This document shows positions 4,364 to 33,515 of a DNA stretch of 42,094 bases, in pieces. Position numbers and translations under genes: made by a program. Position 1 is the first letter of the stretch; each line of letters starts with the position of its first letter. This DNA is from a virus, in IMG/VR virus record IMGVR_UViG_3300043353_000062, positions 1 to 42,094 of that record. One strand, given 5' to 3'. Below the pieces are notes generated by a model. It searched no databases. It was not told the origin of the DNA and worked only from the letters and a program-made list of their open reading frames with translations.

Positions 4364-5038
4364 TTACGCTTTGGTTTTGAATCGCTCGCACCACTCAGAA
4401 GGTGCCGGTGTGCTGATTCCCTCAGGCAACTTCAGCATCTCGTTGTTCGCCACCACCTTCTGCAGCGCAACACGCCCCGTCATTCTGAACCGGCCTTCCC
4501 AGCCCCGATTTCGGTTGGTCCACCGCGAATGATCAACGCCATTCGCATCCAGAAGTGCGGTGAAGTCGCTCATTCTGATGCTGTGGTTTTCGTTGAGGCA
4601 GTAACCAGCAATTTGCTGCGCGAGCCAATCCCAGTTCGACCGCTTGGCCGCCTTACCACCGTAACCGCCCGCCCTTGCGTTTTCGATGTACTTCACCTTG
4701 AACTTGTCCTTCACCACCGAATTGCGTTCCTTCTCAGGCTCGATTTCGTCGTCGCTCGGATCGCCTTCCTCCTCATTTTCGGTTTGGTCTTCGAATTCGG
4801 TGACCTGATTGTTCGGGCCAGCCTCGCCTACGTTTTCGGCGATGGCGCGGTGCATAATCTCAATTCCCTCCGGCGTCGGCTCCAGCAGAACCGCCGTGAC
4901 GCCCTCAGGAAGATCAGCCCGCTCCTCGCCGCTCTGAATGCCCATAATCGGATCAGGAAGTTCGCCCGCCTGAAATTTCACTGCCAGTTCGGCTTGACGT
5001 TCTGCATTCGTCTTCTTGTTCGCTGCTCGCTTCGCCAT
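4364..5038 (-). CDS. RMTGR-family paralog 2, with long acidic N-terminus
   Basis: 224 aa from the ATG at 5038 (GGAG 8 nt upstream). The first ~105 residues are extra compared with its paralogs: a basic start, then a long acidic Glu/Asp linker. After that come NSVVK, WDWLAQ, FTALLDANGVDHSRW and GWEGRFRMTGR in the same order as the gene at 2406, to which it is closest. It is the only family member on the minus strand and has its own promoter at 5087-5115. The acidic arm could mimic DNA or contact a partner; that is speculation. Confidence 0.85.
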   Translation of the reverse strand: MAKRAANKKTNAERQAELAVKFQAGELPDPIMGIQSGEERADLPEGVTAVLLEPTPEGIEIMHRAIAENVGEAGPNNQVTEFEDQTENEEEGDPSDDEIEPEKERNSVVKDKFKVKYIENARAGGYGGKAAKRSNWDWLAQQIAGYCLNENHSIRMSDFTALLDANGVDHSRWTNRNRGWEGRFRMTGRVALQKVVANNEMLKLPEGISTPAPSEWCERFKTKA

Positions 5039-7139: not shown

Positions 7140-7161
7140 TGACATCCACAGGGAGAGTGTT

Positions 7162-7695
7162 ATGATCAACAGAATAAAGGGAGTGCCTACAGACGGAGCA
7201 GTAGCATACAAGGAGGGTAAATTCGCTGGCGAGTGTCCCTACATGGAAGAGGACGACGACTTCGCACGGTGGAATGACGAATGGGACGCCGCAGCCGACG
7301 ACCACGAAGACAAAGCCAATAAAGCACCAAAAGTGGGATCGGTGGTTACCAATCGTTACCGGGCCAAATATTCGGAGTCAGGGCACGCAACGCATTGTGG
7401 GGACGACCTAGCTGTCCTCCTCAATTCGCTGTGCACCAACAAGGCAGGCACCAACCTTGAGATATTCGAGGCGATATGTCAAGTCAACGGGGTGGACCTG
7501 TCCAAATACAACCGCACCAACAAAGGCTGGCAGGGGCGTCTTCGCATGACGGGACGCAACTTGCTGTCCAAACGCGTGGCCGAAAATGGGGGCAAGCTGA
7601 TGCTGCCCGAATGGGTGGGCACCGAACACCAACTCGATCGAGACTGGGTAGAATACACACTGAACAAATACAAACCGAAAAAGGACGTAGCATGA
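7162..7695 (+). CDS. RMTGR-family paralog 3
   Basis: 177 aa from the ATG at 7162 (GGGAGAG upstream). An acidic N-terminal third is followed by GSVVTNRYRAKY, an insert with Cys-His residues, FEAICQVNGVDLSKY and GWQGRLRMTGR, then a C-terminal helix rich in Lys. It keeps the family order seen at 2406 and 4364 but has lost the WDWLAQ motif. It overlaps the next gene (ATGA). Confidence 0.83.
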   Translation: MINRIKGVPTDGAVAYKEGKFAGECPYMEEDDDFARWNDEWDAAADDHEDKANKAPKVGSVVTNRYRAKYSESGHATHCGDDLAVLLNSLCTNKAGTNLEIFEAICQVNGVDLSKYNRTNKGWQGRLRMTGRNLLSKRVAENGGKLMLPEWVGTEHQLDRDWVEYTLNKYKPKKDVA

Positions 7696-8927: not shown

Positions 8928-11465
8928 ATGGAACAAATAAAAGGTGGGTTCGCGTTGAACAACGCGGACGAACTCCTAGTCAACCAACAGCGCACCATAA
9001 CCGGCCAGATAAATAACAATTTTATCCAAGTCGGCGCTACGTTCTTGCAGATGTCAGGCAAGAATCCATTCACTTCGGACTGGTACAAGAAGAAGTTTAG
9101 AGACACTAACCTGCAGGATTGGGTCGACAATCCCGACATGCGGGTTCTCAATCTGGGGTTCAATCTCCAATTCGGCTGGTTAGACGTCGACATTGACGCA
9201 GAAGACCCCCGCTACAACCATTGCATCATCAAAGCATTCAAATTCCTCGGGATCGACACGCGTTTCGCTTTCGGGCGCGCATCGCGCGGCGTGGCTTCTC
9301 ACATGATGGTTCAGCTGACTGAACCGGACCTAGCCAACTATGACGTAATGAAAGAATTTGAGCCAAAGGAATTCAAGCTCGAAGGTAAGCGGTATAAATG
9401 CGAGCTACGTTCGATGGGTCCGATGTTAGCAGACTCACCAAACATGATAAAGGAATCGCGACAGACTGTAATGCCAGGTTCTATATACATTCACAAGACA
9501 AGACGGGGTGAGCACGATGTATCGGTTTGGTATACCGCAGAAGGCAAAGCGGCCGTTTCGGTGGGCGAAATCGCGGCAACAACGTCGCGCAAGACATCTT
9601 TCGCCAACCTCATCACCGGCATCGCTTTTGGCACTTTTCTCTATGTTGTCCAACCACACTGGATTGAAGGAGGAAGACAGCAACTTGCCACAAAGGTCGC
9701 AGGGTGGCTTGCCCGACTTGTTCGTGAGAGCCAAGGTATAAATGATAACGAGGGGATAAGTCGTGGTACATTCTGTCCGATTGGTACTACGGAAACTGCA
9801 GAATCTATGCTCGATTTCGTCTGCGATCAGTTGGGAGATCGAGAATCGTTCATGCGGAAGCGAGTATTCCGCGACGCGATCAAGAAGCTGGAGAACAACC
9901 CCGATGCCAGAATTCCCGGATGGCCCGCTCTCGAAGGAGACATTGGAACTGAATCCATGTTGGCCCTGCGAACAGTGTTTATGCCAGGGATCGACGTGTC
10001 TCCACTTACCAAAATGGCTGATCGTTACGTCTATGACGAAACCGATGACATGTACATCGATAGAGAAAGATTCTATACCACTTCAGGATTTGTCCACGAT
10101 GGGTCCGCATTGGACCGTCGCCACCGTAATGATCTTATGGAAGTTGCTGGCAAGATGAAGCCAGTGTTCAAGCTGTTTGAGTCAAGCCCACTTAGAAGGC
10201 GAGTAGGAGGCAGGGACTTATACCCCGACTTCCAACCCGGCTCTATATTTCGCTTAACTCGTTCTGGTGGCACAATCCCCGACGACCAAGATAACGAACC
10301 CGGCACGATGACCATGTTCAATACGTGGCGAGGCTGGCCCGTTCTACCGGCGACGCACATCGACGAGAATTTGATCGCCAAGTGCAACTCAATGATGAAT
10401 CAATTGTTTGCCTATCTAAGTCAAGACAACCAAACCCAAATAGATTGGTTAAAACAATGGATTGCATGGACTGTACAACATCCGGGGCAGAAGCAGCAGG
10501 TTTCACCAGTATTTGTGGGTGGGCAGGGTGTCGGCAAGTCCTTTTTTGGAAACATTTTCCTAGAACAGTTATTTCAGAATCAGTGGGGTTCTGCGTCACC
10601 GAGGATTTTGGAAGGGTCGTTCTCTGTCGAGCCTTTCATCAACAAGATGATTGTCTTTATCGACGAGGCCAAATTCCACAGCGAAGCGGCGACGGACGAA
10701 ATCAAGAAACTGATCCGGTCGGACAGGATGGGTGGTGCGGAGAAGTTCCAGTCTGCGCGAACATATCGTATTTTTGCGCGGGTTGTGTTTGCCAGTAACC
10801 GATTTGATATGAATATTGGGCAGGCAAATACACAGGACCGCGCGCTGTTTTATTTGAAGACCTACGATAAAGATCACAAGAGGATGACAGAACATGAGTT
10901 CAGAGTCTGGGCTGTTACCCTCAAGCCGTTCTTTGACGAATTTAACACGTTTATACGAAGAATGGACGTCAAAGAACACTTCATGCACATCTTCAACACA
11001 TTGCCAGTTAGTCGACACGATATTGAGAACGTATCCAATTCGTCTGGAACTGATAAACACATCATCGAATCAAACATGGCTTATCCACGCAGAGTGGCCA
11101 AGCACATCGTGGAAGAAGGGCGAATCTGGGAAGACCTCGATATTTCAGCACCTTTCACCATGGCAGAATTCAATAAACGAGTTGCTGACACGTGCGATTC
11201 AGCCCGCATTCGTTATGTCCAACCGCGACACGTATTTGACGAGTTCATCAGCGCTGGCCTCCTTGAACAGTGGGTCAACAACGGGTCGAAATTCTGGCGA
11301 TTTAAGTACCGGATTGGCACCCTTACCGAAATGATGGGGCTGGCCATCGGGGTGAACTTGGAATCCCGCTTCACCTTTACCGACGAGGATTTCGGCATCA
11401 ACGAATCAGAACTACTAGGAGCGAAGCCGTGGAAGGGAAGCCAGAATAGCCGATTTCGCATGTGA
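8928..11465 (+). CDS. PrimPol-type primase fused to SF3 helicase
   Basis: 845 aa; ATG at 8928 with a GGGGGA ribosome site. The N-terminal part has DVDIDAED (about 85-92), the metal-binding DxD motif of archaeo-eukaryotic primase/PrimPol domains. The C-terminal half is a superfamily 3-type ATPase: Walker A GGQGVGKS (about 530), Walker B IVFIDEAKF (about 575) and the sensor FASNR (about 620). It should prime and unwind DNA at the replication fork. PrimPol-helicases of this kind are known from several phages, including the Z-genome cyanophage S-2L. It is a single-gene transcription unit with its own promoter and hairpin leader. Confidence 0.9.
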   Translation: MEQIKGGFALNNADELLVNQQRTITGQINNNFIQVGATFLQMSGKNPFTSDWYKKKFRDTNLQDWVDNPDMRVLNLGFNLQFGWLDVDIDAEDPRYNHCIIKAFKFLGIDTRFAFGRASRGVASHMMVQLTEPDLANYDVMKEFEPKEFKLEGKRYKCELRSMGPMLADSPNMIKESRQTVMPGSIYIHKTRRGEHDVSVWYTAEGKAAVSVGEIAATTSRKTSFANLITGIAFGTFLYVVQPHWIEGGRQQLATKVAGWLARLVRESQGINDNEGISRGTFCPIGTTETAESMLDFVCDQLGDRESFMRKRVFRDAIKKLENNPDARIPGWPALEGDIGTESMLALRTVFMPGIDVSPLTKMADRYVYDETDDMYIDRERFYTTSGFVHDGSALDRRHRNDLMEVAGKMKPVFKLFESSPLRRRVGGRDLYPDFQPGSIFRLTRSGGTIPDDQDNEPGTMTMFNTWRGWPVLPATHIDENLIAKCNSMMNQLFAYLSQDNQTQIDWLKQWIAWTVQHPGQKQQVSPVFVGGQGVGKSFFGNIFLEQLFQNQWGSASPRILEGSFSVEPFINKMIVFIDEAKFHSEAATDEIKKLIRSDRMGGAEKFQSARTYRIFARVVFASNRFDMNIGQANTQDRALFYLKTYDKDHKRMTEHEFRVWAVTLKPFFDEFNTFIRRMDVKEHFMHIFNTLPVSRHDIENVSNSSGTDKHIIESNMAYPRRVAKHIVEEGRIWEDLDISAPFTMAEFNKRVADTCDSARIRYVQPRHVFDEFISAGLLEQWVNNGSKFWRFKYRIGTLTEMMGLAIGVNLESRFTFTDEDFGINESELLGAKPWKGSQNSRFRM

Positions 11466-11555: not shown

Positions 11556-11996
11556 ATGGAACCCGAAGTAGAGACCACGGAAACCGAACCGAAAACCACC
11601 AAGTCGATCGTGCCGTCGAAGTACAGCGGCCGATACAAGAACGGCGGCGAAGACGAGCTGGCCCAGTTCATCAAGGCCCAGTGCGTCGTTGAGGGCAACT
11701 TCAGCTTCGACAAGTTCTTTGAACTGTGCAGCGCCAACGGCCTGCCGCAGGAGAAGGTCGACCACTACAAGGGACAGGTCGGTGAGAAGCGCCACGGCGC
11801 AGAAGGTCGTGCTCGCATGACCCTTCGCAACATGCTCGCCACCATCGTCCGCAAAAACGGCAAGGCCATCGGCCTCGACGGAAGTGAAGTTCCTGTGAAC
11901 CTCCCGAAACCAGCCCTCACGGGTGCGGCAAAGGCGGCTGCAGAAGGAACCTCCACTAACGGTCAGTCCGAACCTGCCGCTGACGTTGCAGCCTAA
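11556..11996 (+). CDS. RMTGR-family paralog 4, the most divergent
   Basis: 146 aa from the ATG at 11556 (AGAGGAAG upstream). It keeps KSIVPSKYSGRY, FFELCSANG and EGRARMTLRNML, the same order as its three paralogs, but the RMTGR motif is RMTLR and the WDWLAQ box is reduced to ELAQF. The C-terminal 30 residues are a low-complexity Ala/Ser/Thr tail instead of the Trp-containing end. It is a separate unit with its own promoter. Confidence 0.8.
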   Translation: MEPEVETTETEPKTTKSIVPSKYSGRYKNGGEDELAQFIKAQCVVEGNFSFDKFFELCSANGLPQEKVDHYKGQVGEKRHGAEGRARMTLRNMLATIVRKNGKAIGLDGSEVPVNLPKPALTGAAKAAAEGTSTNGQSEPAADVAA

Positions 11997-13770: not shown

Positions 13771-14220
13771 ATGGGTATACTGGAACGACACGAAGACAAG
13801 TGGTGCCCTGAACCAAATACGGGGTGTTATTTGTGGACAGGCTACGTCACTGGTCCTAAAGGACATAAACGCCCTGTTTTTAGGAGTGGTGGCAAATGCT
13901 CTACCGTGAGTAGGGTTGTCTGCGAAGAATATCACGGTCCTCCACCAACCCATAGGCATGAAGCTCTGCACAAATGTGATGTGGGTATGTGCGTAAATCC
14001 CGACCATGTGAGATGGGGCACTAGGGCTGAAAATGAATTAGACAAACGCAGGAAAAACCCAAATTGGGGTTTAAGTAGGAATAGTGATGGGTGGGTATGT
14101 GTTAGAGTAGATGGTACCCACGACGTCAATGGTAAATATATAGGAATGTTTAAGACATGGGAGGATGCCATCCGTGCAAGAGATTTGTATCAATCCAGAA
14201 CTAGCATTAAGAATAGTTAG
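13771..14220 (+). CDS. HNH homing endonuclease, inserted before the DNA polymerase
   Basis: 149 aa; ATG at 13771 with TTGGAG upstream. The core is HxxxxxHKCD, then CVNPDHV and GTRAEN, the HNH zinc/metal motif of group I-type homing nucleases. A C-terminal module (VDGTHDVNGKYIGMF, then ARDLYQS) looks like an AP2/NUMOD-type DNA-recognition element. It is more AT-rich than its neighbours, as expected of a mobile gene. Its 3' end runs 47-56 bp into the polymerase gene. Confidence 0.88.
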   Translation: MGILERHEDKWCPEPNTGCYLWTGYVTGPKGHKRPVFRSGGKCSTVSRVVCEEYHGPPPTHRHEALHKCDVGMCVNPDHVRWGTRAENELDKRRKNPNWGLSRNSDGWVCVRVDGTHDVNGKYIGMFKTWEDAIRARDLYQSRTSIKNS

Positions 14221-15970
14221 ACAAGAATACAAGCCCATAGCGTACGACTGTGAAACTACTGGATTGACGATCCGTGATAAAATCTGTGGTTATGTCATAA
14301 CTAATCAGGAGTATTCCATTTATGTACCTGTTCGCCATGAGGGAGGAGGGAACATTCCTAACGTCGAAGAATTTGAAAAAGAACTTAATTTCGCTTTTGC
14401 TGACCGTAGCCGTTTTCTCTTTAGAACTGTGGGCCACAACATCGGCTTTGACCTACGTATTAGTATGCGTCATGGGGTGGTTATAAAAGGTCCCTTAGAG
14501 GATACAATGGTTAGCGAGGCAATTATTTCTGATATCACTCAAGGGTACGGATTGGATGAGTGTTGTAAGCGACGAGGCGTGGCACCTAAACGAGGAGACC
14601 CACTATACGCCGAACTTGCTAGGCGATTTGGTGGATTGCCCGACCGCAAGCAGATGGGCAAATTCTGGAAACTTGAAGGGGACCATGAATTGGTGGTCGA
14701 TTACTCCGGCGGGGATGGTATCTCAACGTTGGAGTTATGGGGGGCGCAACAGCGCGTACTCGATTCAGATGACTTGCGAAAGCCATGGCAGTTGGAGTGT
14801 GACTTACTCCCCTATGTCGCGCGCATTCATAGTCGTGGGCTTAAGATCGACCCCGAATACGCGGGGCGAGTAGGAGGCGAAGTTGAAGAAGCCATCGCAG
14901 AAAAAAGCAAAGTCTTTGTCCCCGGATTCAACGTCCGTTCGCCGAAAGCGGTTGAAGCGCTATATCGATCAAATGGGTACACCGACGACCGATTTGCCAG
15001 GACAAATGGGGGAGCTTTCTCCTTCACCGAAAAGTGGCTCGAAACAAATGAAATCGGAGGAGCCATCCTTGCAGTTAGACGGCTCGAAAAGGCACGGGAC
15101 AGCTTTATCGCACCCCTTGTTGACACGCACAATGTCAATGGCCGAGTTCATCCGATCCTCAACCAATCGAAATCAGACGACTACGGAGTCGCGGGGGTCA
15201 GATTCTCCTGTAGTGAGCCAAACCTTCAAGCTTTCCCCAAAAGAAACATCGACGTTGGCAGAGTTGTTAGGAGGCTTGTCGTTCCGGACGAGGGATTTGT
15301 CATTGAGGAGGCGGATGCGAAACAGCAAGAACCAAGACTATTCACTCACTATTCGGGTGACCCCGCCCTCGTTGACGGATACCGAAGCGGCACGATGGAC
15401 ATTCACGATAGAGCCAGTGAAGTCCTAGGGTTAGACCGCGACACTGCAAAGAGGCTGGGCATGGGGATGCTCACCATGATGTCCCCGCCGACGCTAGCCG
15501 GTCACATGCGGTGGCCCATCGAGCGAGCGCGTGAGGCGCACCGCGCGTTCCTCACCGACGCGTTCCCAGCAATCAAAACATTCCAGGATACAGCAGTTCA
15601 TGTCTTCAAACGCCGGGGCTATGTTAAAACACTACTTGGACGGCGAGCCTACCTCGACGATTCCCGTTTCGCCTACCGCGCAGTCTCTAGGATTATACAG
15701 AATGGGGGAGGGGAACACCTCAAGTTATGTCTACTTCGAGCCTGCCAGTACGAAGACGCCTATCCCGACCAAATCCAGGTACTTCTTACAATTCACGACA
15801 GCTTACTCTGGCAGCGACGACCAGATCACGACGTTCGTGATTTGATACGCGGCATCGAAAAAGTAGCAGAAGATTTAGAACTTGCAGTCCCTATTCCTTT
15901 CGGTTTAGGGTCTGGCAAAGATTGGGCGAGGGCTTCCTATGGTGACAAACTCGATAAATACGTCGACTAG
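14174..15970 (+). CDS. dpoZ: Family A DNA polymerase with 3'-5' exonuclease, DpoZ-like
   Basis: 598 aa from the GTG at 14174, preferred because GGGAGG is 9 nt upstream; an ATG at 14165 sits directly against that site. Exonuclease motifs: AYDCETTGL (Asp25, Glu27), HNIGFDL (near residue 90) and YSGGD. Polymerase motif A is EADAKQQEPR (Asp near 379), motif B RDTAKRLGMGML (near 421) and motif C TIHDSLLW (Asp near 542). Motif B is odd: the usual aromatic after the Lys is Met, and the later Tyr of the O-helix is Thr. In Z-genome phages a family A enzyme encoded with purZ prefers 2-aminoadenine over adenine, and this gene likely has that role. The Z preference itself is inferred. Confidence 0.85.
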   Translation: MQEICINPELALRIVRQEYKPIAYDCETTGLTIRDKICGYVITNQEYSIYVPVRHEGGGNIPNVEEFEKELNFAFADRSRFLFRTVGHNIGFDLRISMRHGVVIKGPLEDTMVSEAIISDITQGYGLDECCKRRGVAPKRGDPLYAELARRFGGLPDRKQMGKFWKLEGDHELVVDYSGGDGISTLELWGAQQRVLDSDDLRKPWQLECDLLPYVARIHSRGLKIDPEYAGRVGGEVEEAIAEKSKVFVPGFNVRSPKAVEALYRSNGYTDDRFARTNGGAFSFTEKWLETNEIGGAILAVRRLEKARDSFIAPLVDTHNVNGRVHPILNQSKSDDYGVAGVRFSCSEPNLQAFPKRNIDVGRVVRRLVVPDEGFVIEEADAKQQEPRLFTHYSGDPALVDGYRSGTMDIHDRASEVLGLDRDTAKRLGMGMLTMMSPPTLAGHMRWPIERAREAHRAFLTDAFPAIKTFQDTAVHVFKRRGYVKTLLGRRAYLDDSRFAYRAVSRIIQNGGGEHLKLCLLRACQYEDAYPDQIQVLLTIHDSLLWQRRPDHDVRDLIRGIEKVAEDLELAVPIPFGLGSGKDWARASYGDKLDKYVD

Positions 15971-17081: not shown

Positions 17082-17810
17082 ATGAGAAGACTACTTTTGG
17101 CGACCACGGCCTTACTTGCATTGTCGGTAGCACCCGCCAGTGCTTTTACTATCGACATCATTGCGACGTTCAATCAGAACGTCTCGTTCTCCGACCCGGC
17201 TGGTGTCAGCGTCGAAACCTACGCGGGCACCGGCTCCAACCAGCGAATCAACACCGCTGGCGGCAACGGCCTCAACAACTACATCAGTGCTGACGGCCCG
17301 GGAGGCCCGGCAAACAACCCGTCCGGTCTGTTCATTGGTAACATCACCAACGACACCTCGCCGTTCGGCAAACTGAACGACAGCCGCGTCTATCTTTCGG
17401 CTGGCGGCGGCGATGGCGTCAATGGCGGTGTGGTGGCTCTGAGTGGCTTCGCCCCGTCGAACTCGCTGGGCTTGCTTTGGGGTACGGTCGATAGTGGTGA
17501 CTTCCGCAATCGCATCGTGACTGCCGGTCCCGGTGGTTTAGACGTCATCACCGGCTCGATGGTCCTTCAAGCCTGCCACGATCAGGGCTTCACTTGCGGC
17601 GAAGGCGACACCAACGTCTTCCTTCGCATCAACGGCCTTGACACCTTCACGTCCGCGAAGTTCACGGATCGTGACGCGAATTCGTTTGAGTTCGTGCCGC
17701 TCGTAGCGGCGGTGCCGGAAGCTTCCACTTGGGCCATGATGATCCTTGGCTTCATTGGGATGGGCTTTGTTGGAATGCGCAAGAAGCTTGGCGGCGTTCG
17801 TATCGCCTAA
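17082..17810 (+). CDS. Exported PEPxxWA-CTERM-like sorting-signal protein
   Basis: 242 aa; ATG at 17082 with AGGAG 7 nt upstream. Residues 1-21 are a signal peptide with cleavage after ASA. The mature part is small, Gly/Asn/Asp-rich and beta-like, with one probable disulphide (ACHDQGFTC). The C-terminus has the sorting signal: VPEASTWAMM (about 211-220), a hydrophobic helix (ILGFIGMGFVGM) and a basic end (RKK). In bacteria such tails are cut by exosortase and the protein is released or attached at the surface; the PEPxxWA form is typical of alphaproteobacteria. Here the third residue is Ala, not Pro. Finding it in a lytic phage suggests use of the host's own sorting system to change the cell surface. 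Confidence 0.85.
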   Translation: MRRLLLATTALLALSVAPASAFTIDIIATFNQNVSFSDPAGVSVETYAGTGSNQRINTAGGNGLNNYISADGPGGPANNPSGLFIGNITNDTSPFGKLNDSRVYLSAGGGDGVNGGVVALSGFAPSNSLGLLWGTVDSGDFRNRIVTAGPGGLDVITGSMVLQACHDQGFTCGEGDTNVFLRINGLDTFTSAKFTDRDANSFEFVPLVAAVPEASTWAMMILGFIGMGFVGMRKKLGGVRIA

Positions 17811-18171: not shown

Positions 18172-18377
18172 AGTGTCGCTTTGAGTTTTATCCGACCTAC
18201 CCAACTCATGGCGGGATTTCGTATAGCAGCGGTCACACGTTGGCGGCGTGCCGTTGCGTTGCCCACGGGTTCGACATGGGACAGATACCGATGACCGCGA
18301 GCACGCTATGCCCTATCGGAATGATTGAAGACGCGTGCGACAAAGCGATAGAACGGATCAGAAATGAAAGAGGCTGA
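18168..18377 (+). CDS. 69-aa cysteine-containing protein of unknown function
   Basis: GTG at 18168, overlapping the previous stop. It begins with a CRFEFYP strand, a central CRC and a Cys near residue 47, then a helix (EDACDKAIERIRNE). Four cysteines could bind metal. No family is recognised. Confidence 0.68.
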   Translation: MKCRFEFYPTYPTHGGISYSSGHTLAACRCVAHGFDMGQIPMTASTLCPIGMIEDACDKAIERIRNERG

Positions 18378-18759
18378 CGTCAAGCGGGACATGGTAAAAT
18401 CCATGCGCGAAGGGGGCGGTTATGCTCGCCGCCTCGAAGATCAATACGCTGTCGGTATTTACGACATGGTGCTGATTCCCCCGGGGCTGCCGGTGTTTAC
18501 CGCCGAAGTGAAGATCATCCGCGCCAATACATTCAGCCCGACGCCAAGGCAGTTCGTGGAGTTGCAGCGCATCCAATTCGTCGCCAAAGATGGCGGCCAC
18601 GTAATCCCCGTCATGATCGGGTTTAAAGACGGGGTGTACTACTTCCACAAACCCAAACCGATTATCGAACGTACGGACTGTTTTTCGGTTACGACGAGCG
18701 ATATACCATTCTACAAGCAACTAGTTCTATACTACTACTCACAAAAGGATACCAAATGA
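18364..18759 (+). CDS. PD-(D/E)XK nuclease, VRR-NUC-like
   Basis: 131 aa; ATG at 18364 overlapping the previous gene. It starts with the helix EADVKRDMVKSM. GIYDMVLI supplies the Asp and AEVKII the Glu-x-Lys of a PD-(D/E)XK active site, followed by FVELQRIQFVA. This is the VRR-NUC/Holliday-junction-type layout of small phage nucleases used in recombination or branch clearing. It lies in the same run as purZ. Confidence 0.78.
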   Translation: MKEADVKRDMVKSMREGGGYARRLEDQYAVGIYDMVLIPPGLPVFTAEVKIIRANTFSPTPRQFVELQRIQFVAKDGGHVIPVMIGFKDGVYYFHKPKPIIERTDCFSVTTSDIPFYKQLVLYYYSQKDTK

Positions 18760-19139
18760 ATTCGAAGCTCCGTAATACCCCGCTGGAAATCGCCGAAGGC
18801 ACCCTCCTTGACGCTGGCGATGCCATTCGTGCCCGTCTCAAGGAACACGGCCACACCGAACGGTCATTCGGCATGGTGGGCGAACTGTGGACAACCTACA
18901 TCACGCACGCTTACACAGCGCGGGATCGGTTGCACTTGCAGCCCCACGACGTCGCCCAAATGATGGCCCTCCTCAAGGTGGCACGGGCTGTCTACGGCTA
19001 CTCCATGGACAATTTCGTGGACGGCGCTGGTTACACCGCCCTCGCGTCAATGCTCACCCCGCAGCCGACGACGAGCAATGCCAAGGTGCAACCTCTTGTG
19101 CAACCCAAAGTAAAAGAAGAATCCAATGGGGCTGTTTAA
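18756..19139 (+). CDS. DUF6378-like protein, upstream of purZ
   Basis: 127 aa; ATG at 18756. The core pattern (EHGHTERSFGMVGELW, then HDVAQMMALLKVARAVYG and DGAGYTAL) matches, from memory, the DUF6378 group of phage proteins, which is often encoded beside MazG-type enzymes. The tail is Gln/Pro-rich. It overlaps purZ by 14 nt, so the two are translated together. A nucleotide-related role is possible; the enzyme activity is unknown. Confidence 0.75.
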   Translation: MNSKLRNTPLEIAEGTLLDAGDAIRARLKEHGHTERSFGMVGELWTTYITHAYTARDRLHLQPHDVAQMMALLKVARAVYGYSMDNFVDGAGYTALASMLTPQPTTSNAKVQPLVQPKVKEESNGAV

Positions 19140-20181
19140 GCACAACGGAGTTCACTGCGTCGTCGACGGCCAATTCGGCTCAACAGGAAAGGGGGCGCTC
19201 AGCGCCTACCTTGCCGAAATAGCGATTAAGGGAGGACACGACAGCAAGTTCAGCGGCACTATTTATAGCGGGGGTCCGAACAGCGGGCACACGTTCTACT
19301 ACCACGATGAAAAGATCGTGCTAAAGCAACTCCCCGTGTTTAGCGCTTACATGAACCGCGCCGGGATACACATTCCGGCATATCTGTCTGCCGGTGCCAT
19401 CATTGATCGCGACATACTGCGAAAGGAGGCCGAGGCTTTCCCCGGCCTTCAAATTTTCGTGCACCCTAACGCGGCCATCGTCACCGACGAGGACAAAAAG
19501 AATGAAGAAAACGGCCCTATAGCGGAAGTAGCCGGGACCCGGAGCGGAACCGGTGAGGCGCTGGTCCGGAAGATACGCCGTATGCCTTCTGTCATCGCTA
19601 GCAATTCACTGGGGCTGATCGCTCACAACGTGTCTATTCTCAACCACCGGATCAAGCCAGAGCGAAATTCATACTTCATGGAGGTATCGCAGGGGTTTAG
19701 CCTTGGAATCAACTCGCATTTCTACCCCAAAGTGACAAGCCGCGAGTGCACGGTGATGCAGGGTTTGGCCGACGCACGAATTTCCCCCAGGCAATTGGCC
19801 CGCGTCTACATGGCTGTCCGAACCTTTCCTATCCGGGTGGGCGATGTTGATGGACATTCTAGCGGTGGTTGGTACCACGACCAACACGAAACCAACTGGG
19901 AAAATCTGGGAGTAACACCAGAGATCACCACGGTGACTAAGCGAATACGTCGCGTGGCGTCATTCTCCATGACCCAATTCATCGAGGCTTGCTGGGCCAA
20001 CGATCCCGACTGTGTGTTCGTAAGCCACATGGATTACCTGGACGAAAATGACCGAGCTAGCCTGATGGAAGACCTAACCGCAGCGAAATATCACATGGGG
20101 AAACACTTTGATTTCCTCGTGGCAAGTGGGCCGAAAGTGGGCGACGTCAAGAGAGAGGAATCCATTTTATGGATGAAATAA
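19126..20181 (+). CDS. purZ: Aminoadenylosuccinate synthetase PurZ (2-aminoadenine DNA pathway)
   Basis: 351 aa; ATG at 19126. It belongs to the PurA family but has the PurZ form of the GTP/ATP loop: DGQFGSTGKG (14-23), where PurA has GDEGKGK. The catalytic Asp of PurA is thus Ser, a known PurZ mark. Other PurZ-type blocks are SGGPNSGHT, EVSQGFSLGIN with YPKVTSRECT, and PEITTVTKRIRRV. It should join aspartate to dGMP to give the precursor that host PurB and kinases turn into dZTP. The next gene is MazZ-like and overlaps it, as in known Z phages. Confidence 0.93.
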   Translation: MGLFKHNGVHCVVDGQFGSTGKGALSAYLAEIAIKGGHDSKFSGTIYSGGPNSGHTFYYHDEKIVLKQLPVFSAYMNRAGIHIPAYLSAGAIIDRDILRKEAEAFPGLQIFVHPNAAIVTDEDKKNEENGPIAEVAGTRSGTGEALVRKIRRMPSVIASNSLGLIAHNVSILNHRIKPERNSYFMEVSQGFSLGINSHFYPKVTSRECTVMQGLADARISPRQLARVYMAVRTFPIRVGDVDGHSSGGWYHDQHETNWENLGVTPEITTVTKRIRRVASFSMTQFIEACWANDPDCVFVSHMDYLDENDRASLMEDLTAAKYHMGKHFDFLVASGPKVGDVKREESILWMK

Positions 20182-20495
20182 CAGTCGACGTACCAGTGTC
20201 GCTGCAGAAGCACGCCCGGCACTTGGCTAAGTTCTTCGAAGGGATGATCCGAAAGCTGGACAAGAACAGCCACAAGGATACCCCGACGATCCACAATATA
20301 CCCACCATCGTTGACTTGTTGGTGGAGGAGGTAGTCGAATTCGAGGACCAGTTCCACACCGACAGGAATAACGAAAACAGCCTAATAGAACTTATGGACG
20401 TGGCCAATTTCGCATTTTTGGCCTACGTCGCGTTGAGAAATCAAGGGGTGGAGCATGCCCAAAAGGCAAGTGGCGCTAACGTTGGACGAATCTGA
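20169..20495 (+). CDS. mazZ: MazG-like nucleotide pyrophosphohydrolase, MazZ-type
   Basis: 108 aa; ATG at 20169 inside the purZ end. EExxE (residues 53-57, EEVVE) and ExxD (74-77, ELMD) are the metal-binding motifs of all-alpha NTP pyrophosphatases. In Z-genome phages this enzyme (MazZ) breaks dGTP or GTP to the monophosphate, feeding PurZ with dGMP. The overlap with purZ makes that role likely here. Confidence 0.85.
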   Translation: MDEITVDVPVSLQKHARHLAKFFEGMIRKLDKNSHKDTPTIHNIPTIVDLLVEEVVEFEDQFHTDRNNENSLIELMDVANFAFLAYVALRNQGVEHAQKASGANVGRI

Positions 20496-20625
20496 CTGCG
20501 CTTGGCTCGAGAAGTTATACGGCTGTACTTGGGTCAAGCGGATGGAACAGCACATCGAAAGCGAAATACACCTTAGGCGACAAGACGCCGATCCGTTGAA
20601 GGAGAAACCACCGTGGTCGTATTAA
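20455..20625 (+). CDS. 56-aa protein of unknown function
   Basis: ATG at 20455 (GGGGTGGAG upstream), 41 bp inside the mazZ end. It begins MPKRQVALTLDESDCAWLEK and has a charged helical middle and a PPWSY end. No family is recognised. It ends inside the start of the HNH gene at 20613. Confidence 0.68.
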   Translation: MPKRQVALTLDESDCAWLEKLYGCTWVKRMEQHIESEIHLRRQDADPLKEKPPWSY

Positions 20626-20981
20626 ATAAAAGCAACCAATTAATAATGCAAGCAATAAAATCTAATGATTTATGGCGTCGTGTTGAACATTGGTCCATAC
20701 CGGAGCCCAACTCTGGGTGTCTATTGTGGTTAGGGGCATTGAGTCGTAAAGGATACGCTGTTATTAACTGTGGGCAAGTGCCGATTAAAGTATCTAGATT
20801 GGTGCTTACAAAATTGTTGGGAAAAATACCACATAGGGCCTTACACACATGTGATATTCATTGTTGCATCGCCGAAAATCATCTATATGAAGGAACTGAT
20901 GTGGACAACGCGCGTGATATGTTTAATCGCGGAAGATTGTCAAGAAACCCAAACGGCACGTTAGCTAGTCCAAAACGTTAG
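20613..20981 (+). CDS. HNH homing endonuclease between mazZ and the helicase
   Basis: 122 aa from the GTG at 20613 (AAGGAG 8 nt upstream); an ATG at 20646 is the alternative. SGCLLWLGALSRKGY and HRALHTCDIHCCIAENHLY, then GTDVDNARDM, are the HNH homing nuclease pattern, related to the gene at 13771. It is AT-rich compared with purZ and the helicase, as for a mobile gene. Like the other copy it sits against genes of the Z replication module. Confidence 0.85.
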   Translation: MVVLNKSNQLIMQAIKSNDLWRRVEHWSIPEPNSGCLLWLGALSRKGYAVINCGQVPIKVSRLVLTKLLGKIPHRALHTCDIHCCIAENHLYEGTDVDNARDMFNRGRLSRNPNGTLASPKR

Positions 20982-20989
20982 GAAATGAC

Positions 20990-22375
20990 ATGCAGTTATT
21001 GAAAGTACAAGAAAATGCATTGGCGTCGGCGAAAGGTCACCCGGGATTTGCCTACTACATGGAAATGGGTTTGGGGAAGACTCTTACCGCTTTGGCGGAG
21101 TTTGTCGCTTTGGTCGACAAAAGAGAAGTAACACGGTTGGTGGTAGTCTGTCCTAATTCGTTTAAGATGGGCTGGAAAGACGAAATCAATAAGCACGGAA
21201 TAAATGTGCACCCGTATGTCTACGAATCCGGGGCGGACTGCGCTAACGAATTTTTCCTTAAGATTGATTACCAACGACCCCCGGCGCTTATCGTCAACTA
21301 CGAGGCAATCCGAAAGGAAGCCACCCAACAATACATATCCAAATTTACCCTTGGACGTAACTGCATGATCGTCCTGGACGAATCGGTACAGATCAAGACG
21401 TACAACAGTCAACAGACCAAAGCCGCGCTGGCGATGGCCCCATGGTTCCACTATAAGCGCATTTTATCCGGGAAGCCGGTTACGCAGGGACCCCACGACC
21501 TCTGGGCACAAATGAGATTTATCGGCGCGAACGTTGGTAATTATTACCCCTTCAAAACCACGTTCTGTCGGATGGGCGGGTTCAAAGCCAAGAAAATAGT
21601 AGGGGCGCAGAACGAAGAATTGCTCGCCGCCAAGATTGATAAGTATATATTCCGAGCCTCCAAGGTGGATTGGACTGACCTGCCACCCAAGCTTTACACT
21701 TCGCGCCAGTATCAGCTTTCGCCTAAGCTGGCAGCGATGTACAAGTCTATGGAGGATGATTTCGTACTTTGGCTAGATGAAACCGAAAACGTAGCCGTGG
21801 ATGCTTTCATAACGAAATACATCAAGCTGGCCCAAATCCAATCCGGATTCATCATCAAGGAAGATGGCACCGTCGAGGAATTGGTGTCCCCGGAGAATAA
21901 CCCACGGTTCAATTTGGTGAAAGACATCCTGGAAGAAACCCCCGGCAAGGTGGTGATACCGTACATTCACAGGTATACTTCGCACTTGCTGCTGCGGAGC
22001 CTCGAAGAATACTACCCCGCGATGATTAAGGGCGGTATGTCGCCGGACGAAATCCAGCTAAACAAGGGTAGGTTCAACGACGACGCAGAGTGCCGAGTTA
22101 TCCTAGTGCAGACCCGCGCCGGGAAATACGGACACACTCTATTGGGCGGCGAAGATGTGCTGGATAAGTGCTCGACGATGGTGTTTGCCGAGAACAGCTA
22201 CTCGCTGGACGACAGAAGCCAAATCGAGGACCGAATCCACCGACACGGGCAAACGGCGGATAGTTGCTTATACATAGATGTTTGGGGTACCGACTTGGAT
22301 CGCCGCATCACGCAAGCGTTGCAGGCGAAAGAGAGCATAGTCCAAGCGGTGTTTCAATACTTCAAGAAAGATTAG
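20990..22375 (+). CDS. SF2/SNF2-type DNA helicase
   Basis: 461 aa; ATG at 20990 with AGGAAA upstream. MEMGLGKT (near 25) is Walker A and VLDES (near 128) is motif II. SGKPVTQGPHDLW follows, and QIEDRIHRHGQ (near 412) is motif VI. This is the compact SNF2/DEAD-like helicase common in phages, probably for replication or recombination. Its stop codon overlaps the stop of the opposite-strand gene at 22372. Confidence 0.88.
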   Translation: MQLLKVQENALASAKGHPGFAYYMEMGLGKTLTALAEFVALVDKREVTRLVVVCPNSFKMGWKDEINKHGINVHPYVYESGADCANEFFLKIDYQRPPALIVNYEAIRKEATQQYISKFTLGRNCMIVLDESVQIKTYNSQQTKAALAMAPWFHYKRILSGKPVTQGPHDLWAQMRFIGANVGNYYPFKTTFCRMGGFKAKKIVGAQNEELLAAKIDKYIFRASKVDWTDLPPKLYTSRQYQLSPKLAAMYKSMEDDFVLWLDETENVAVDAFITKYIKLAQIQSGFIIKEDGTVEELVSPENNPRFNLVKDILEETPGKVVIPYIHRYTSHLLLRSLEEYYPAMIKGGMSPDEIQLNKGRFNDDAECRVILVQTRAGKYGHTLLGGEDVLDKCSTMVFAENSYSLDDRSQIEDRIHRHGQTADSCLYIDVWGTDLDRRITQALQAKESIVQAVFQYFKKD

Positions 22376-29177: not shown

Positions 29178-30137
29178 TTATCCCAACTTTATCTGTGCGT
29201 TGAGAACAATCGTGGGCTGCGCATTGGGGTGCCAGGAATTGCCCAATGAACCACCAACATCGGTATTACCACTCCAACTAAAGTTATGGGTAATAGTTTG
29301 GTTTTCAATACCCGTAGTTGTAGTACCATAAGTTGTTGCGGTGTGCGAATCAAACCAACGAACTCCGGGATTATAATCATACGGGTAGGTATAGTTGTGA
29401 TTGTGATTCTGGTTTTGGCCACCGGTTGTAGCACTGCCCGAATAACCATGCGGATGCTGCGCCATTTGGGCAGCTGTTAGGTAATGATAATCCAAACCGC
29501 CAGCATTGCCAAGCGCATTACCATTAAATGTGGTTATCAATCTATTTGTACCACCGTCAACGTGCGCCACAACACGTCCGCGAATATCGGGAAGTATAAT
29601 AGTCGTAGCATCGCTGCCCCACATCCCAACCGGTATTCTTAACGATAACCCTGGATTAGCCGCGCGCAATACACCTTGTCCGTTGCACAGCGCCCAACCG
29701 AAATCTGCAGTCGCTCCGGGGGTGTAACCCACAGTTCCAGGGGGAACACCTAAATATTGGAAATTTCCGTCCGGACGCATAATACACGGGTTGCCATTAG
29801 CGTCGATGTACACGGTCGCGACACCGGCAGGGGGTGTTGCTGGCGGAGCGCGATAAGGCTGGCTAATTGCCAATATGTTAGCGGCACCGGTTTGACGATT
29901 TATAATGATTGGGTCGTCAATCCGCAGCCCATCGTTACCGTATCGCGTGATTACAAACGGACCGGTTGTGCTGGCCGCTACTTCGTCACCCATCGTGATG
30001 TGCCATTGGATGGTATTGTACACCATCTTGCCATCAACGATGTCCCAATTGCCGTTGGTCTTGGTGCCCCAAGTATTGTTGGACGCACCGACTTCCGGCT
30101 TGGTGAAGCCCAACTTGGGGGTTACTGTATCGGCCAT
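29178..30137 (-). CDS. Tail fibre protein with tail-collar domain
   Basis: 319 aa; ATG at 30137. N-terminal KLGFTKPEVGASNNTWG is a virion-attachment block shared with the 512-aa fibre at 31977-33515. The C-terminal half has FGWALCNGQG, LPDIRGRVVAHVDGG and a His/Asn-rich stretch (NQNHNHNY), the phage tail-collar domain. It likely contributes to host binding. Confidence 0.83.
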   Translation of the reverse strand: MADTVTPKLGFTKPEVGASNNTWGTKTNGNWDIVDGKMVYNTIQWHITMGDEVAASTTGPFVITRYGNDGLRIDDPIIINRQTGAANILAISQPYRAPPATPPAGVATVYIDANGNPCIMRPDGNFQYLGVPPGTVGYTPGATADFGWALCNGQGVLRAANPGLSLRIPVGMWGSDATTIILPDIRGRVVAHVDGGTNRLITTFNGNALGNAGGLDYHYLTAAQMAQHPHGYSGSATTGGQNQNHNHNYTYPYDYNPGVRWFDSHTATTYGTTTTGIENQTITHNFSWSGNTDVGGSLGNSWHPNAQPTIVLNAQIKLG

Positions 30138-31977: not shown

Positions 31978-33515
31978 CAGAGCCTCGCATCGACAGTGAA
32001 GTTGCCACCAGCATTTTGCATGACGAAGTCAGTTCGCCCGACGGTCAAGGTTCCAGCAGATGTGTAACATCCCACTTGCAAGACGGCGGGGGTGGAAAAA
32101 TTATTTTTGACACTTGTAATGGTTACAAAAACATTATTGTCCCAAATCGTTAGTGGGCTTGTTATTGCAATCGATGGCACGGCCCGCATCTGTACTGGGT
32201 GAGGCGCGGTCAAATAATCTGCGACATTCACGGCAGAGGCCATCCCGATCAACGGTGGTATGCCATTGTAAAAATGTCGCTTGCACAACAACAATTCAAC
32301 AGCAAAGGAGCGGACTTCATATCGCGTTGCTATCGAACCTTCCTCTAATTGCACGTCGGTAACGTTGAAATAATCACTTACCGGTGTCGTTTTACTGTCG
32401 CACCAAATCATGACACCTAAATTTGTTGCGCTCGCACTCACAGCACCCGTAACCGCCGCAGGCGTGGGAATAAGATTGCCCGACACCGCCACATAACTCC
32501 AATTTGCCGCAAGCGTCGGATTAGTTCCCGCCGCGCCCCATGCCGAAATCGGATTGGCAATGACATCGGCAGTCCCGGCCCATTGCAGGATCGCCATTTT
32601 CAGATTTGTGATAGACGGCAAATAATTAAACGCCACCGAAAGCGTCACGCTGCGGCCAACCAAATCGATCATGTTGGCTGTTTCGATTGGTTGAAACACA
32701 CCAAACTTTAAGTTGGCTGATCCTGCCTGCACCGTCAGGCACTGGCGCGGACCCATATTTGCAGACTGCGGCCACAGATTTATATTGCCGCTCTCAACCA
32801 TCCCTCGCCACATGTCCGGCCCGTAAACGTAAGAACCGACGGTATAAGTACCAGTCGACATTTGGTTGACAGTAGAACGGCCATTGATAACCCGATTTTT
32901 GCCGGTGAGGCTTGAAGAATTAACGGCGTCGATATTTGCGCGAGCCTGTGTCTGCTGCGCCGCTGTCAGCGTCTGCGCCGCGTCGTAGCGCACCGCCTTG
33001 GCGGCAATCTCCGCGCTAACAGCAGCGGTCGATGCCTTCGACGTATCGCTCGGGTGGACGTGGTCCTCGCGCGAGTATGGCGTGGCAATGCCGGGGGCCG
33101 CGACACCATCCATGATCGGATTGGCGGTGCTTGGCGTGCCGCCGCCTCCACCACCACTGCCGGGCAGAGCCGTAATCGCGACCCACTGCGACGACGTACC
33201 GTCATTAAAGAAAATGTAGAGCAGGCCGGTGTCGCTCTCCCACCAGAGATTGCCCGCCGTGGCACCGGTTGGCGCGGTGTCGCTGACGGTAACCGAAGCG
33301 CCACCGGAACCGCCCGAACCGGGAGGACCAGTGTCGCCTTTATCACCCTTGTCACCCTTGTCACCCTTGTCACCCTTGTCACCCTTCGGCCCTTGAATGC
33401 CTGGGGTTACATCCAATATGTCGAAGTTATGGTTGAGCTTCTCACCCCAAGTGTCATCCGAAAAGCCCACATCAGGCTTGATTAATCCAAGATTTGGGGT
33501 GTATTCGTCAGCCAT
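31977..33515 (-). CDS. Tail fibre protein 1 with collagen-like segment
   Basis: 512 aa; ATG at 33515. N-terminal NLGLIKPDVGFSDDTWG matches the collar fibre, followed by a collagen-like stretch (about 37-60) of GDK/GPK triplets, and a Gly-rich hinge. The same APGIATPYSREDHVHP block as in the 452-aa fibre follows, then a jelly-roll receptor domain and TVDARL at the end. The collagen-like part forms a triple helix, giving a stiff shaft. Confidence 0.85.
   Translation of the reverse strand: MADEYTPNLGLIKPDVGFSDDTWGEKLNHNFDILDVTPGIQGPKGDKGDKGDKGDKGDKGDTGPPGSGGSGGASVTVSDTAPTGATAGNLWWESDTGLLYIFFNDGTSSQWVAITALPGSGGGGGGTPSTANPIMDGVAAPGIATPYSREDHVHPSDTSKASTAAVSAEIAAKAVRYDAAQTLTAAQQTQARANIDAVNSSSLTGKNRVINGRSTVNQMSTGTYTVGSYVYGPDMWRGMVESGNINLWPQSANMGPRQCLTVQAGSANLKFGVFQPIETANMIDLVGRSVTLSVAFNYLPSITNLKMAILQWAGTADVIANPISAWGAAGTNPTLAANWSYVAVSGNLIPTPAAVTGAVSASATNLGVMIWCDSKTTPVSDYFNVTDVQLEEGSIATRYEVRSFAVELLLCKRHFYNGIPPLIGMASAVNVADYLTAPHPVQMRAVPSIAITSPLTIWDNNVFVTITSVKNNFSTPAVLQVGCYTSAGTLTVGRTDFVMQNAGGNFTVDARL
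33337..33389 (-). repeat. 9-bp tandem repeats coding for collagen-like GDK triplets
   Basis: About five or six copies of the 9-mer TCACCCTTG (plus strand) encode GDKGDK in the fibre gene. Tandem coding repeats of this kind can gain or lose copies, changing fibre shaft length. Confidence 0.75.

Follow-up and report, generated by a model that had tools for sequence, protein, structure and literature searches.

How a phage whose genes predict 2-aminoadenine (Z) in its DNA could keep ordinary adenine out without DatZ is the question raised by the locus described here. In studies of Z phages, purZ, mazZ and datZ are known as a co-conserved set, and the exclusion of adenine is credited to DatZ together with the polymerase DpoZ. 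The window analyzed, 42,094 bases long, is the whole of an IMG/VR record classed as linear.

Relationship of the window to phage vB_OspP_OH

Proteins of Ochrobactrum phage vB_OspP_OH (OH; Wolominvirus, Z-cluster, MazZ-2) were matched along the window genome, and the gene order from the primase-polymerase through the helicase was the same in both. Among virion proteins, identity to OH was 71% for the major capsid protein and 38% for the portal. On these protein comparisons, the window is a member of the vB_OspP_OH lineage. At the DNA level, a search of phage records with positions 1 to 25000 returned no near neighbor. Scans of viral contigs yielded 74 loci through the polymerase (up to 90% identical) and 70 through PurZ (up to 84%), on partly shared contigs. 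All close relatives are uncultured contigs, the ends of which may be missing.

The SU10-like character of the virion genes, noted in an earlier sequence-only reading, was borne out by matches of the major capsid protein to Pfam SU10_MCP (4e-80) and of the portal to SU10_portal (3e-158). The same reading considered an alphaproteobacterial podovirus a less usual setting for Z-DNA. That view does not hold, as such a phage was already known: OH, an isolated podovirus with an alphaproteobacterial host (PMC7139368), is organized alike and already counts as a Z-cluster phage, the 2021 Z-cluster paper mentioning its MazZ-2 by name (PMC8342488).

The replication region of the window comprises the following features:

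8928-11465, + strand: primase-polymerase (51% identical to OH gp22; DUF5906 and DNA primase PHROGs)
14165-15970, + strand: family A DNA polymerase with 3'-5' exonuclease, of the OH type (63% identity to OH), with Thr at the steric gate (Pfam DNA_pol_A and exonuclease matches; motif comparison)
18364-18759, + strand: small gene, putative nuclease by the OH annotation (33% identical to OH gp30; conserved order)
18756-19139, + strand: DUF6378 gene directly upstream of purZ (Pfam DUF6378, 2e-19; next to purZ across most of the clade)
19126-20181, + strand: purZ, 2-aminoadenylosuccinate synthetase (54% identity to OH; top NCBIfam match PurZ, Ser for the catalytic Asp, tree position)
20169-20495, + strand: predicted (d)GTP pyrophosphohydrolase of the MazZ-2 type (30% identical to OH MazZ-2; four carboxylates; MazG-type PDB profile matches)
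20455-20625, + strand: small ORF of 56 codons in the datZ slot (distribution among datZ-minus loci; cassette swap at a shared ATG; codon pattern)
20613-20981, + strand: HNH-like ORF between the small ORF and the helicase (phmmer similarity to the HNH_3 gene family of the window)
20990-22375, + strand: SNF2-type helicase closing the Z interval (Pfam SNF2-rel_dom; 49% identical to OH gp36)

Identity of PurZ and MazZ

The ORF at 19126-20181 starts with ATG, encodes 351 amino acids and contains VVDGQFGSTGKG. It matched PHROG 1211 at 1e-54, and its PDB matches were headed by the PurZ structures of phiVC8 (6fm1) and S-2L (7odx). Among NCBIfam models, PurZ (NF038379) scored highest with 208 bits, followed by archaeal-type PurA with 125 bits and the other PurA models with at most 71 bits. 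The profile comparison thus favored PurZ as the best family, but the score stayed below the 300 bits set as the curated cut-off for PurZ, as did that of OH (241 bits); the reference proteins of phiVC8 and S-2L scored 397 and 350 bits, with Herb within that range. The PurA cut-offs were missed by a far wider margin. It appears that the NCBIfam PurZ model does not cover the OH clade.

The window protein carries GSTGKG where the PurA enzymes of Escherichia coli and P. horikoshii have GDEGKG, and its Ser aligns with the catalytic Asp13 of PurA. A tree was built from 2 PurA, 2 PurZ0, 9 reference PurZ and 20 window-clade sequences. The window grouped with known PurZ, the proteins of phiVC8 and S-2L forming a sister clade; the two PurA sequences, inside which the protein should not fall if it is a PurZ, lay outside with support of 100/99, and PurZ0 likewise (100/99). 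Profile, catalytic residue and phylogeny therefore agree on the PurZ identity originally proposed. In bacterial genomes, the only relative of the window PurZ was a protein in a Terriglobia MAG contig (L147:10001-10816), 30% identical to residues 46 to 309.

The 3' end of purZ shares 13 bases with the ORF at 20169-20495. This gene had been assigned to the MazG/MazZ fold because of EExxE and ExxD motifs, and both were confirmed, as EE(53,54)xxE57 and E74xxD77. E54, E57, E74 and D77 were invariant in 24 homologues including phiVC8 MazZ-2, and correspond to the four metal-binding carboxylates of published MazZ-2 (PMC8342488). The alignment had no invariant Arg column as a counterpart of R83 of S-2L. 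The profile of the window MazZ family reached phiVC8 MazZ-2 at 1e-19, as well as solved MazG-type chains. Motifs, profiles, trees and the position behind purZ support a predicted enzyme of the MazZ-2 type.

Directly upstream of purZ, the DUF6378 gene was considered as a second MazG-type hydrolase and rejected: it had no profile link to MazZ, and its low-confidence structure model had no fold match. Phage records label this gene phosphofructokinase, apparently via PHROG 474. A DUF6378 member is also found close to the Z genes in Burkholderia phage Bm1.

Absence of datZ

The sequence-only reading recognized here the gene set of known Z phages. This description fits purZ, mazZ and the family A polymerase gene, which was indeed found 3.2 kb upstream of purZ; it fails for datZ, which the window does not have, and for the polymerase, which is without the residues and two of the insertions typical of phiVC8 DpoZ. 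The window resembles the purZ-mazZ-datZ clusters of phiVC8 and S-2L in that PurZ is followed by a MazG-fold pyrophosphohydrolase, but differs from them in having no datZ. In OH, datZ sits between mazZ and the helicase, and it lies behind mazZ also in phiVC8, ZP6, S-2L, Bm1, BUCT555, PSA28, Barton and PMBT28. The datZ and gp34 genes that OH has in this interval give way to the small ORF and the HNH-like ORF in the window. With all filters off, no reading frame in the six frames of the window matched the DatZ profile.

We evaluated how common this arrangement is among relatives. The interval from purZ to the helicase was complete in 63 distinct loci of the OH clade, counting the window and OH themselves; datZ was missing from 36 of them and present in 27. 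Mapped on the purZ tree, datZ changed state no fewer than eight times; the DatZ tree, in which the order of gain and loss was sought, was poorly resolved. Whole-record scans of 30 records with the DatZ profile, in which positive controls were matched in 8 of 8 datZ-plus records, found no datZ in the window, in 12 datZ-minus contigs (36.8 to 45.1 kb) whose slot is closed, or in the remaining datZ-minus or truncated records. Relocation of datZ to another place in these records was rejected on the basis of these scans. Replacement by a DUF550, DUF5664, dUTPase-like or YfbR-like gene was also considered, and none was present in the window and 14 related records, while positive controls were matched. 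A search for deoxyribosyltransferases is uninformative, as the Herb control gave no match either.

Estimates of dN/dS for purZ, mazZ and the polymerase gene in datZ-minus pairs were 0.01 to 0.2, values that are rough as dS was often near saturation. In datZ-minus relatives, the three genes are kept together under purifying selection. According to a paper from 2021, mazZ is conserved without exception at a position between datZ and purZ in ten phages (PMC8342488). According to a report from 2026, DatZ is encoded by most purZ phages (PMC12884076); its wording, "mostly," already allows for exceptions. The absence of datZ from much of the OH clade was not noticed in the sequence-only reading, nor were the slot gene and the Thr/Ser gate described below. 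Three OH-clade loci (L046, L047 and L049) have datZ and no mazZ; in the subgroup that they form with L050, datZ lies directly 3' of purZ and mazZ is absent, the reverse of the window.

A small gene in the datZ slot

Comparison of ORF families between near-complete datZ-minus and datZ-plus records singled out a short ORF behind mazZ, that at 20455-20625 in the window. Its profile was found in all 24 datZ-minus loci of the 32-row subclade of the window and in none of 36 datZ-plus loci; it was absent from all 12 datZ-minus loci in other subclades. At the end of mazZ, a shared ATG starts datZ in L036, L042 and L032 and the small ORF in L022, L081 and L101, and either gene extends to the start of the helicase gene. 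The replacement of datZ by the small ORF, or the reverse, is a clean cassette exchange.

Outside the mazZ overlap, the three codon positions of the small ORF differed by 0.32, 0.22 and 0.53, a coding-like pattern. All 21 viral-contig matches of the profile fell on contigs already known to carry purZ. No convincing family was found in Pfam, PHROG or NCBIfam, and the structure model of the protein was a single long helix with no fold match. The mutual exclusion of datZ and the small ORF is suggestive; it comprises four independent pairs (sign test, P = 0.125), and is partly expected since the two genes share one slot. Other genome-wide trackers of datZ absence were discarded: apart from the small ORF and the frame shadowing it on the reverse strand, nothing in the replication region stood out, and the remaining candidates proved to be virion genes or spurious frames on the reverse strand. 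The clustering also placed two datZ-minus genomes in the datZ family, through chance links between unrelated frames.

The HNH-like ORF next to the small ORF (20613-20981) has no Pfam match of its own, and the close relatives L013 to L015 have no such ORF at the datZ slot. It is likely a mobile gene outside the Z module. A second member of the same family lies upstream of the polymerase gene (13771-14220, + strand), and L117 and L126 also carry an HNH-like ORF at the datZ slot.

Altered steric gate in the polymerase

The polymerases of the OH type retain the exonuclease and polymerase catalytic acids. In comparisons with DpoZ models, the window polymerase scored 243 bits with the NCBIfam DpoZ model, short of its cut-off of 500 bits, and did not match a Wayne-like DpoZ model. 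Insertions 2 and 3 of phiVC8 DpoZ are missing from the window and OH polymerases. L455, F459 and G548 of phiVC8 DpoZ are replaced by M, T and S in the window, and L455 and G548 are also missing in OH. With these insertions and residues absent, a preference for Z cannot be assumed.

At the position of E. coli Tyr766 in helix O, 64 of 66 OH-clade polymerases have Thr, as in the window, and 2 have Ser, as in OH. Phe occupies this position in eight phiVC8-like polymerases and one Wayne-like polymerase, whereas Tyr was found in eight others (host Pol I, phage polymerases and the fragment L084). In previous work, Tyr was described as a steric gate and Phe as the only mutation common to both Z-selective groups (PMC8599892). 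A third group of Z-linked polymerases thus changes the helix-O Tyr, to Thr or Ser rather than Phe. The PurZ0 phages Wayne, Ghobes and Herb, which are also without DatZ, have Phe in place of this Tyr; the window differs from them in having neither a dUTPase-like (DutZ) nor a DUF5664 gene, and its PurZ and polymerase belong to other clades. We considered the Tyr-bearing polymerase of L084 as a Z-free sister and set it aside, as L084 is a 4.7-kb fragment without relatives in which absence of purZ is unproven. The literature names phiJL001 as a Z-free relative of DpoZ.

Proposed exclusion of adenine without DatZ

Given the PurZ and MazZ identities, a genome with 2-aminoadenine in place of adenine is the best inference, and synteny with OH, a described Z-cluster phage, argues for it; substitution may be full. 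Our preferred reading, to which we assign a probability of about 70%, is that the window represents a Z-DNA phage in which the polymerase, in the absence of DatZ, does most of the work of excluding adenine. MazZ-2 would convert dGTP to dGMP, PurZ would convert dGMP to the dZMP precursor, and host enzymes would carry this precursor to dZTP for incorporation by the OH-type polymerase. Adenine would be kept out mainly by that polymerase, the Z selectivity of which we infer from its altered steric-gate residue. Consumption of dATP by PurZ may assist: S-2L PurZ accepts dATP besides ATP (PMC8342488), so dATP could fall without DatZ. The small protein of the datZ slot is a possible further helper.

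The main rival is partial substitution, in which DNA of mixed A and Z content, made without DatZ, would contain just enough Z to hamper host nucleases. Both DatZ and the DpoZ hallmarks are missing, and at least eight gains or losses of datZ on the purZ tree are what a dispensable gene would show; yet lineages without datZ have conserved purZ, mazZ and the altered polymerase, and we regard this explanation as unlikely. Somewhat more doubtful is that the product of the small ORF takes over the function of DatZ, perhaps by extending the action of MazZ to dATP or by cutting off the dATP supply from the host. Its exclusion with datZ is perfect, in one slot and from a shared start codon, and in the viral collection it is confined to purZ contigs. 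Against this stand the small number of independent pairs, the 12 datZ-minus loci that have neither gene, and a single-helix model of 40 to 56 residues, which is not enzyme-like. A combined scheme is about as doubtful: a DatZ-independent Z system in which this new-family protein of 40 to 56 residues and a third kind of Z-selective polymerase, with a Thr/Ser gate, jointly exclude adenine.

It is very improbable that the synthetase is a PurA of ordinary purine metabolism in a phage with normal DNA. The score below the curated PurZ cut-off is compatible with that view, as is the interpretation of the gene set as nucleotide salvage by the authors who described OH (PMC7139368). However, the catalytic Asp is replaced by Ser, the gene occurs together with mazZ and an altered polymerase, and both tree and profiles speak against PurA.

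With a small gene in the place of datZ, the phage may reveal another way of keeping ordinary adenine out of Z-DNA. The clade has lost datZ repeatedly, and mazZ in a single group, but has kept purZ and the polymerase, which shows the pool-cleaning enzymes to be exchangeable. It also offers sister pairs from nature, L022 and L036 among them, in which to test what excludes adenine. A different substitution at the residue common to the known Z-selective polymerases makes the role of that residue directly testable.

Other features of the genome

The replication gene cluster contains a signal-peptide protein (17082-17810, + strand) with weak matches to a C-terminal PEP-CTERM/PEPxxWA sorting motif; profile relatives occur at about a dozen related loci. 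From this protein and the kinship with OH, we would guess at an exosortase-bearing host, perhaps a sphingomonad. Relatives of OH gp15/gp23 form a repeated family of small early-region genes (2520-2849, +; 4376-4720, -; 7156-7608, +; 11604-11990, +). Among the virion genes, two stretches (30033-30137, -, and 33411-33515, -) share the N-terminal 35 residues of the fibre-like OH gp45, as if one had been copied and its distal part exchanged.
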